DNA from: Promethearchaeota archaeon
GTDB lineage: Archaea > Asgardarchaeota > Lokiarchaeia > Sigyniarchaeales > SOKP01
DNA: 64,000 bases
NCBI GenBank assembly: GCA_016839745.1
Contig: JAEOTS010000152.1
Coordinates: forward strand, 1 to 64,000
Direction of reading: 5' to 3'
Both the position numbers and the translations under genes were made by a program. Of the stretch, positions 61,241 to 64,000 are shown piece after piece (positions within the stretch are counted from its first letter, which is position 1; each line of letters opens with the position of its first letter). The notes beneath the pieces are model-generated. The model did no database searches. It had not been told where the DNA came from and worked only from the letters and a program-made list of their open reading frames with translations.

Positions 61241-62608
61241 CTAATTCTTAAATCCACACTTAGAGCAAGTAGAAGCACCAATTAACGTATTACCACACAT
61301 TTTACACAATTTAACTGTGCTTCTTCTAGGAGGTTTCAACTTAGTGATTGAGATCTTCTCCTCTACCTGAGTCGTTCCCTCGGTATCGCTTATGACTGAT
61401 TCAGTTGCTGAAGGTACGAGATTATTACTTGAGCCGTTAGGCTTCACTTTTACTTCTTGACCAAAATATCCTCCAACTCTAACTTTTTTAATTGGAGTTT
61501 CAACTGAAGGAGGTTTACTCAATCTAGGTGGAGATTTGATTTTTTCTGGATTGAGAATATCCTCACCAATTATTACATGTTCGTAATCCTCTTCAATTGC
61601 TTGTTCTTCGATTGGATTCTCTTCAACATACCCTTCTTCTACATTCTCATCGACAATTTCAGGTGTTACTAATTCTTGCCCGTGTTGTTCTTGGTATTCT
61701 TCCTCGTATATCATATCTACATATTCTTCGTCTAATTTTAAGAGGGTATCACATTGAATGCACCTAAATAAATGGTTAAATCCGATATTATTTGTAATTG
61801 AATAATCAGCAGCACAACATGCGTGGTATTTCGCATTACAATTATAACATTTGTGAACCTCGTCAGAATAGGCACTACAAATAGGGCACACTTCCTTTTC
61901 GCATATATCACACTTTTCTTCCTCATCAGGATCTAATGAGATTAAGTCTACAGCCAGTTTTTCGTAAAATATTTTGTCTTCTTCTAAAATTTGACTATTC
62001 GCTTCAGGTTGCACAACATTAAATTCCGATCTACTCTGAATTAAGGAAATTATGATGTTCAAGAACGATTTTACATCGTTGCAATAGAGTACTCCTCCAT
62101 GAGTTTCACTGGTTACAACTTTTAATTTAACATCGTCATTATAGAACTTCTCTCCTCCTACTCGAATAATATCAATAAAAGTATCGAATTTCTTAGCTTT
62201 AATTAAAAGATCGTAAAGCGCGTTGTGATAGTCATCTGATAAAGTACTAGGAGTATCCGATATAATTATTATTCTATAGTTCTTTCGAGCATCTCTACTC
62301 TTTCTAAAGACATAAGCTAATATTTCAAATAAACCATTTTCGAAAAAGCTTCTTTTGGTTTCTCTGGTTTCCCACTTTTCATTTATGATTTCGGTAATTA
62401 CTTCAAAATCATTCTCATCGTATAATGTTACTGGATTATCGTCATTTTGAAAAATTAACAATCCGTATGAACTTAATGTATTAAACTTAGCTTTTTCTTT
62501 AATAAAAGTGCCAATGCTTTTGATAACGTTCTTTTTCTTAATAAAATCTGTGATAAGATCAATATAAAAGATAAATTCTTCTGAGTTCACTGACGCTTTC
62601 TTAAACAT
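61241..62608 (-). CDS. vWA-like protein with PHD/RING-like zinc finger and C-terminal zinc ribbon
   Basis: 455 residues, no standard family recognised. Residues 1-200 look like a von Willebrand A fold: FIFYIDLITDF as the first strand with a MIDAS Asp but not the SxS, FFENGLFEILAYVFRKS, NYRIIIISDTPSTLSD at the third MIDAS position, then FIDIIRVGGEKFYNDDVKL. Residues 233-286 hold eight or more Cys/His in the order CDIC, CPIC, CYNC, H, C, CIQC, with spacing C-x2-C-x9-C-x2-C-x4-H-x2-C-x17-C-x2-C, the PHD-type pattern. An acidic, Pro-rich linker follows, with VRVGGYFGQEVKV, then a ribbon (CKMCGNTL, CSKCGFKN). vWA plus zinc finger recalls TFIIH p44/Ssl1. Tandem with a paralogue. Confidence 0.75.
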   Translation of the reverse strand: MFKKASVNSEEFIFYIDLITDFIKKKNVIKSIGTFIKEKAKFNTLSSYGLLIFQNDDNPVTLYDENDFEVITEIINEKWETRETKRSFFENGLFEILAYVFRKSRDARKNYRIIIISDTPSTLSDDYHNALYDLLIKAKKFDTFIDIIRVGGEKFYNDDVKLKVVTSETHGGVLYCNDVKSFLNIIISLIQSRSEFNVVQPEANSQILEEDKIFYEKLAVDLISLDPDEEEKCDICEKEVCPICSAYSDEVHKCYNCNAKYHACCAADYSITNNIGFNHLFRCIQCDTLLKLDEEYVDMIYEEEYQEQHGQELVTPEIVDENVEEGYVEENPIEEQAIEEDYEHVIIGEDILNPEKIKSPPRLSKPPSVETPIKKVRVGGYFGQEVKVKPNGSSNNLVPSATESVISDTEGTTQVEEKISITKLKPPRRSTVKLCKMCGNTLIGASTCSKCGFKN

Positions 62609-62757
62609 ATTAAGATCCAGATGCAGTATTAATTTTATCCAAAAATGAAGTGAAGTTACATAAAATAATAAGAGAATTTTTATTTATTTTTATTGATCTT
62701 ACCTAAGTTCTTAATTTTTAAATCAATAAATTTACTCAAAAATATTAAAAAAGAAGT

Positions 62758-64000
62758 TCAAACTTCTAACTTGTGTCCACAATACGGACAAGATTGTTTA
62801 TTATTATCCTTTTCATTAATCGGGGTACCACAGCTAGGACAATTAGTAAAACTTGGTCTTTTTCCGATTTTTTGTGCTTCATTTACTCCTCCTGAAGGGT
62901 TCCAATATTGTGGTACTTCAACTTTTTTAAGTTTTGGTTCTAAAACGGTATTATTTTTTGTTTGGTATGCATTATCGTTCCTTTCAGCATTATTGGGTTC
63001 TGTTACTTTTTGATAAATCAGCTTATCGCCTTCTTTTTTAATGGTATATGTCTTTCCAAAAAAGCCCCCGATCCTAACTTTTTGAAATTTTTCTTCTGGA
63101 GTTTTCACAGTTGTGATATCAGGAGTTAGTTTAGTCTCTTGATAAGAATTTCCGATATCCAATTGCTCAGATTCCTCTAAAGTTATTTGTTTTACAGATT
63201 CTGTAGTTATTTCTTCATTTTCTATGTATTCTTCAACCGAGTCAGTTGTATCTTCATATGGGGAGACAATTTCATCTTGATCAATTTTTAAAAGAATATC
63301 ACACTTGGGACATCGAAAAATATGTGGAATTCCAATATTATTTTGTATCGTATAATTAGTCACACAGCAATTATGAAATGCAGATTTACAACTTTCGCAA
63401 GTTTGTAATGTGTCGTTGATATCAGCGCAACAAGGACAAATCTCTTCTTGACAAATATGACACTTCAGTCCCACATCATTTGGATTTGAAGGAATTAAAT
63501 TTTTTGCTAAGCGAGAATAAAAATCGTAGTCCTCCTTCTTAATTTTAATTCTATCTGATTGTTCTTCAAATGTACTGACTAATTTTTTGGATTTGATTAA
63601 TTTTTTTATTATAGCAATGAAGTCCTTCTTTTCAGATAAATAAAACATTCCTCCCTTAGTATCGCTTGATAAGATATTTAATTTTACATCGTCTCTAAAG
63701 AACCTTTCTTCTTTTTCTGAGACTCTTATGATATCTATGAAAGTGGGTATTATTTTGATTTTAGAAACCAAACCAAATAACGCTTCAGTATAGTCTTCAG
63801 ATAGATCGCTAGGGGTATCAGTTATTACGATAATTCTATTATGCCTTGACTTTTTTCGTACTGTTTCAGCTATATACGAAAAGATGTAAAAAAGTCCGTT
63901 TTCGAAGAACGATTGCTTCTTAGGACGAGTTTTCCAGTTTTCTTCAATAGCGTTTTCTATAATATTGGAATCTTTCTTATCTGTTATAAATATAGGATTT
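62758..64000 (-). CDS. Paralogous vWA/PHD-like zinc-finger protein, 5' end beyond the window
   Basis: The ORF track shows only 337 residues because it starts at an internal Met. The frame stays open to the window edge, adding at least 75 residues that match the neighbour: SFFENGLFYIFSYIAE and NRIIVITDTPSDLSEDY. The zinc region repeats the same spacing (CHIC, CPCC, CESC, H, C, CPKC), and a linker motif VRIGGFFGKTYTIK matches VRVGGYFGQEVKV of the first copy. The C-terminal ribbon is NCPSCGTPIN and CPYCGHKL. Conservation is strongest in the vWA and zinc domains and weakest in the linker, as for a functional duplicate. It is 149 bases upstream of the other copy on the same strand. Confidence 0.8.
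   Translation of the reverse strand, partial: NPIFITDKKDSNIIENAIEENWKTRPKKQSFFENGLFYIFSYIAETVRKKSRHNRIIVITDTPSDLSEDYTEALFGLVSKIKIIPTFIDIIRVSEKEERFFRDDVKLNILSSDTKGGMFYLSEKKDFIAIIKKLIKSKKLVSTFEEQSDRIKIKKEDYDFYSRLAKNLIPSNPNDVGLKCHICQEEICPCCADINDTLQTCESCKSAFHNCCVTNYTIQNNIGIPHIFRCPKCDILLKIDQDEIVSPYEDTTDSVEEYIENEEITTESVKQITLEESEQLDIGNSYQETKLTPDITTVKTPEEKFQKVRIGGFFGKTYTIKKEGDKLIYQKVTEPNNAERNDNAYQTKNNTVLEPKLKKVEVPQYWNPSGGVNEAQKIGKRPSFTNCPSCGTPINEKDNNKQSCPYCGHKLEV

Follow-up and report, generated by a model that had tools for sequence, protein, structure and literature searches.

The closest described counterparts of the proteins reported here are two subunits of TFIIH, p44/Ssl1 (PF04056) and p34/Tfb4 (PF03850), in which a vWA domain is followed by zinc modules. 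Within TFIIH the vWA domain of p34 binds the RING of p44, and the MIDAS of p34 is reported as unlikely to hold a metal (PMC4094531). Another vWA protein, Rpn10/PSMD4 of the 26S proteasome, carries no RING. RING-type fingers are also found in the archaeal srfp of ubiquitin operons, a small RING E3 that is not fused to other domains and has the Trp that contacts E2 (PMC5654768), in the three-zinc RINGs of Rbx1 and APC11, where a second CxxC is joined by a Cys or His just before C6, and in the C4HC3 RING-like fingers of Slx1 and Nse1. In the literature that we looked into, only a relative of ERCC3/XPB is discussed among Asgard TFIIH-like genes (PMC9258230). A literature search of partial coverage found no description of a Lokiarchaeal vWA-RING family, and nothing on Asgard in combination with Ssl1, or with vWA, RING, ubiquitin and operon.

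We analysed a window that covers bases 1 to 64,000 of a contig (C130) 69,530 bases long. A preliminary description, made from the sequence alone, had suspected an Asgard chromosome carrying two tandem genes of shared layout. The genome is indeed that of a Lokiarchaeota member, and the pair corresponds to two minus-strand open reading frames, A and B (Table 1), whose products are about 40% identical. The first ~52 codons of gene B lie past the window end and were read from the contig. Among window open reading frames of at least 60 aa, none besides A and B has such a finger motif. Both genes evolve under purifying selection, with dN/dS of about 0.15-0.18 against a relative (dN 0.10 and dS 0.66 for A, 0.12 and 0.64 for B), and A and/or B were matched in 51 of 58 genomes searched, their own included. 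In 72 A/B sequences the Cys and His residues of the fingers and ribbons are 99-100% conserved.

Table 1. Features of genes A and B (positions in the window unless stated; domain assignments are predictions)
Feature	Position	Strand	Description	Basis
Gene A	61241..62608	minus	455 aa; vWA, RING-type finger, disordered acidic linker, zinc ribbon	ORF
Gene A vWA domain	62036..62587	minus	residues 8-191; without intact MIDAS	AF2 model, Foldseek
Gene A C4HC3 RING-type finger	61736..61912	minus	C233-K291; extra C241/C244/C264	ligand conservation, finger model
Gene A VGGYFG motif	61460..61477	minus	in low-confidence linker	conservation among A/B sequences
Gene A C-terminal zinc ribbon	61244..61306	minus	CxxC...CxxC; C435, C438, C448, C451	
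Gene B	62758..64155 (on contig); 62758..64000 (in window)	minus	465 aa; layout as gene A	ORF
Gene B vWA domain	63586..64000 (in-window part)	minus	residues 6-52 beyond the window	whole-vWA alignment with A in relatives
Gene B C4HC3 RING-type finger	63286..63462	minus	extra CPCC and C263	
Gene B IGGFFG motif	63055..63072	minus		
Gene B C-terminal zinc ribbon	62761..62841	minus		Pfam Zn_ribbon_3 E 0.0014 (below cut-off); conserved Cys

Pfam searches with A and B alone gave no significant domain, the Ssl1 (PF04056) gathering cut-off not being reached, and homology was for this reason traced through paralogs. A phmmer search of the PDB with gene A likewise gave only chance-level matches, with the p44 RING (5nus, 5obz) at E ~1. 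The window's genome encodes two paralogs, S1 (contig C86) and S2 (contig C52), here called canonical, in which the DTSRSM/DSSRSM site is intact. Both also show a DxKPNRL signature and, besides the RING-type finger, another RING-like finger at the C-terminus, and both pass the Pfam Ssl1 cut-off. A profile of 11 canonical members, all of them matching Ssl1, retrieved from the PDB Rpn10 (2x5n, 5e-18), p44 (4e-15), BRISC BABAM1 (4e-6) and RING E3s such as Arkadia (3.5e-6). Profile-profile comparison joins A/B to the canonical set across both vWA and finger (99.3% probability, E 1.1e-20, 281 columns), and the canonical profile alone finds gene A (3.5e-22) and gene B (8e-15) in the window's genome. 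By these comparisons A and B belong, as divergent members, to a vWA-RING family that resembles p44 and Rpn10, and we hold the homology and layout part of this reading with high confidence. The likeness to p44/Ssl1 and Rpn10 proposed earlier thus stands for the fold and for the PDB matches of the canonical paralogs, but A and B are not direct p44 orthologs: they make up a divergent branch from the Loki order within a vWA-RING family that spans the class, and in which the canonical members are the p44/Rpn10-like ones. Unlike the TFIIH subunits, they fall below the Ssl1 model, have a C4HC3 finger where p44 has a C4C4 RING, and combine a long acidic linker with a different terminal ribbon, outside any TFIIH context. 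Rpn10 shares a homologous vWA domain with the canonical paralogs but has no RING; Pfam detected no ubiquitin-interacting motif in A or B.

The N-terminal half had been taken for vWA-like, and the predicted structure agrees. Strands and helices of the gene A AF2 model follow the order E-H-E-E-H-H-E-H-E-H-E-H, the Rossmann-like alternation of a vWA domain; the model was built on a shallow alignment of 20 rows (Neff about 2) and has an overall pLDDT of 59, with most of residues 10-190 at 60-90. Searched against the PDB with Foldseek, it gave 216 matches at E <= 0.001 (best E 4e-10), the best 43 of which are all TFIIH p44/Ssl1 or p34/Tfb4 chains, and its TM-score against the isolated vWA domains of p44 and p34 is about 0.7. 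The MIDAS (DxSxS...T...D) is not intact in A/B, as in p34: the first Asp and D118 are kept and both Ser are mostly replaced (T/I/A and D/E), whereas DxSxS is intact in 24 of 25 canonical members. The A/B vWA domain may best be explained as a domain that binds protein but has no functional metal site, within an overall explanation that we consider somewhat probable.

The preliminary description had also reported a cross-brace zinc finger with exact PHD spacing and an additional CxxC upstream. The spacing C-x2-C-x9-C-x2-C-x4-H-x2-C-x17-C-x2-C does occur in both proteins (C241, C244, C254, C257, H262, C265, C283 and C286 in gene A, each one residue earlier in B), and the upstream CxxC is C233/C236 of gene A. 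However, in 79 aligned relatives the ligands that vary little or not at all in any branch, with exceptions in a few sequences, are C233, C236, C254, C257, H262, C265, C283 and C286, while C241/C244 are missing in whole sub-clades. The PHD reading, which begins at this accessory pair, was rejected for that reason. Pfam gave no PHD match in A/B, Phe281 stands where the PHD Trp would be expected two residues before C7, and the PHD cut-off was exceeded only in paralog S2 of the same genome. We assign the A/B finger to the RING-type C4HC3 cross-brace, with C233/C236 as the core first pair, from the ligand order in the relatives and from a finger-only model (pLDDT 78.6). The topology of this model agrees with a cross-brace, and its leading fold matches, with probability up to 0.99 and none at E <= 0.001, are the RING-type domains of Slx1, Deltex, Ring1b and Nse1. 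The cross-brace part of the description is therefore retained, the predicted finger not being built of separate ribbons only.

The dispensable pair C241/C244 and C264 are largely gained and lost together: they are present in nearly all A/B proteins of the window's family (f1) and of family f2, and are absent as a set from the intermediate branch of the tree and from f4. Some canonical members also have a second CxxC followed by a Cys or His at position 264, and in members from two genomes of one family (G053 and G054) the set is accompanied by an extra Cys and an HLHC motif, an arrangement that we take to be the third-zinc pattern of Rbx1/APC11. One canonical paralog has a Pfam zf-ANAPC11 match at 1.2e-5. 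These patterns suggest that C241, C244 and C264 probably form a third zinc site. In comparison with Rbx1/APC11, A and B lack the fourth third-site Cys, for which the invariant Asp249 could be a stand-in.

Both proteins also have the acidic linker with a shared VGGYFG/IGGFFG motif and the terminal zinc ribbon that had been described for them. In the 72 A/B sequences G379, G380, F382 and G383 of the GG[YF]FG motif (gene A numbering) are conserved at 100% and the four ribbon cysteines of gene A at 99%. The motif is weaker in f2 and f4 and absent from the remaining paralogs; at the DNA level it has 12 matches genome-wide, against 6 for a reversed-pattern control.

The vWA-RING family is restricted to the Lokiarchaeal class, where 81 of 83 sampled genomes have strong canonical matches. 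When 148 genomes of the phylum were searched, the Pfam Ssl1 cut-off was passed in 36 and the canonical profile matched 37 at E <= 1e-12, all within the class; none of 14 control genomes passes the Ssl1 cut-off. With the A/B profile, 35 class genomes gave a match; the one hit beyond the class is weak and covers the ribbon only. In a maximum-likelihood tree the S, intermediate and A/B sequences fall into separate, strongly supported clades. Among these relatives, which are mostly incomplete metagenome assemblies, the split into A and B lies inside the window's family: the f2 and f4 loci read have one copy, and two single-copy rows of genus g6 are uncertainly placed. Proteins of the intermediate branch (L082-L093; 333-384 aa) are without a MIDAS and have the RING Trp; in one genome (G026) the gene adjoins one with a histone deacetylase domain, and an E2 gene is about 4 kb away. 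One canonical member (G052, 686 aa; L101 3136-5193) has a long C-terminal extension that ends in zinc ribbons.

Gene B lies directly upstream of gene A in most f1 loci read, some genomes being without B or single-copy. Just past the window, upstream of B, lies a divergently transcribed gene of ~655 aa, P655 (C130 64292-66259; L009 4293-6260), which adjoins B or A in 15 f1 loci and lies 2.4 kb off in a 16th. The tandem pair with this divergent partner is confined to f1. P655 has no significant PDB or Pfam match, and reading its sequence gave us the impression of a possible wHTH at the N-terminus. Further along the contig (C130 66305-69300; L009 6306-9301), a CDP-alcohol phosphatidyltransferase gene and two LURP-one-related/scramblase-like genes, one with a zinc ribbon, are kept in relatives. 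In four f2 genomes of two genera (G042, G049, G046 and G050; L070-L073) the only A/B ortholog is transcribed divergently from neighbouring genes for a Ras-family GTPase and an actin-family protein (Pfam Ras 3e-40 and Actin 1e-78 in G042). A survey of neighbours for ubiquitin-system or TFIIH-like genes had been suggested; none of the A/B genes in the loci read has a ubiquitin, TFIIH or proteasome gene beside it. A ubiquitin cluster close to A/B was likewise rejected for the window's own genome, where four E2-type matches lie on other contigs (C37, C104, C143 and C144). This genome also has ThiF/E1 genes, and an E1 and an E2 gene are about 350 bases apart on contig C144. A canonical paralog of G054 lies inside a gene cluster that encodes an E1-like ThiF, a UQ_con E2, a JAB deubiquitinase and a second ThiF protein (L099, C6:267000-277000); in G053, of the same family, the paralog is not in such a cluster. 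A ubiquitin link for the family is suggested by this one paralog in one genome.

We propose that A and B are tandem, duplicated and diverged vWA-RING members, related to TFIIH p44/Ssl1 and Rpn10, that may act as a non-catalytic, E3-derived scaffold or adaptor. Lacking a functional metal site, the vWA domain would bind protein, the C4HC3 RING-type finger and its probable third zinc site, as in Rbx1/APC11, would dock a partner, and the GG[YF]FG motif of the disordered acidic linker and the terminal ribbon would give further contacts. A and B could form a heterodimer in which one vWA domain holds the RING of the other, as p34 does with p44, and might work in a complex with the P655 product; by analogy, such vWA-RING pairing is the most economical guess for how A and B would associate. 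The non-catalytic reading is preferred because both proteins have lost the Trp that holds E2, and also an intact MIDAS, while keeping every zinc ligand. This Trp, at C6+4, the E2-contacting position of RING E3s, is present in 24 of 25 canonical and 12 of 12 intermediate members and in 0 of 42 A/B sequences, where nearly all f1 and f2 members have Tyr or Phe instead. Counting against this explanation are neighbours that differ by family, P655 in f1 and Ras GTPase plus actin in four of six f2 loci, none of them a ubiquitin, TFIIH or proteasome gene, together with the absence of a significant Pfam domain in A/B, the moderate confidence of the whole-length model and the finger-only fold matches above E 0.001. 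We moderately favour the combined explanation, in which A and B are vWA-RING family members acting as a non-catalytic adaptor pair; the adaptor mechanism itself is tentative.

A and B might instead be active RING E3 ligases whose finger recruits the E2s of the genome while the vWA domain binds substrate. The eight zinc ligands are kept, most A/B proteins are still hydrophobic at the C-x-[ILF]-C position, the genome supplies its four E2-type matches, and the canonical paralog of the G054 cluster is placed among E1, E2 and JAB genes. Ssl1 has been proposed to act as an E3 (PMC4094531), and the archaeal small RING protein, which is one, is impaired when I30, W58 or R69 is mutated (PMC5654768); A and B, however, are vWA fusions without its Trp. 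This reading was demoted from the leading position since none of the 42 A/B sequences retains the Trp. Moreover, no linchpin Arg or Lys directly follows the last Cys (C8) in A/B, and no ubiquitin gene adjoins them. We consider active ligases unlikely.

More improbable is an adaptor for small GTPases or for cytoskeleton or membrane processes that is unrelated to ubiquitin. It would fit the Ras-family GTPase and actin-family neighbours of the four f2 genomes, the position of S1 divergent to an Arf/RagA-like GTPase gene in two families (G000 and G042; L094 3702-4907, L097 2770-3969), and the phosphatidyltransferase and LOR/scramblase-like genes that border the f1 locus. These neighbours are not common to the families, though, and two further f2 genomes differ. 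Small GTPases of this kind are common in these genomes, so adjacency by chance is plausible. Slightly less probable still is that A and B control the helicases XPD/XPB during transcription or excision repair, as p34 and p44 do, since this family occurs in one class only, DEAD_2 helicases are also found in archaea without it, the conserved neighbourhood holds no repair or transcription gene and the genome's own XPD is on another contig (C105), even though p44 and p34 are the closest structural matches, the tandem vWA-zinc pair parallels them and an XPD-type helicase (DEAD_2) occurs in 28 of 31 genomes searched, this one included.

The non-catalytic vWA-RING pair that we favour also invites a bolder view, which we regard as speculative and rather unlikely: the Lokiarchaeal family and eukaryotic p44, p34 and Rpn10 would descend from a shared archaeal ancestor, with A and B as a p34:p44-like heterodimer and a prokaryotic precursor of the vWA modules of TFIIH and the proteasome. 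If our reading of A, B and their paralogs is right, 81 of the 83 sampled genomes of one Asgard class encode strong members of a vWA-RING family with p44 layout and an Rpn10-related vWA domain, alongside E1 and E2 genes, and the origin of the vWA subunits that eukaryotes have in TFIIH and in the 26S proteasome becomes directly testable.
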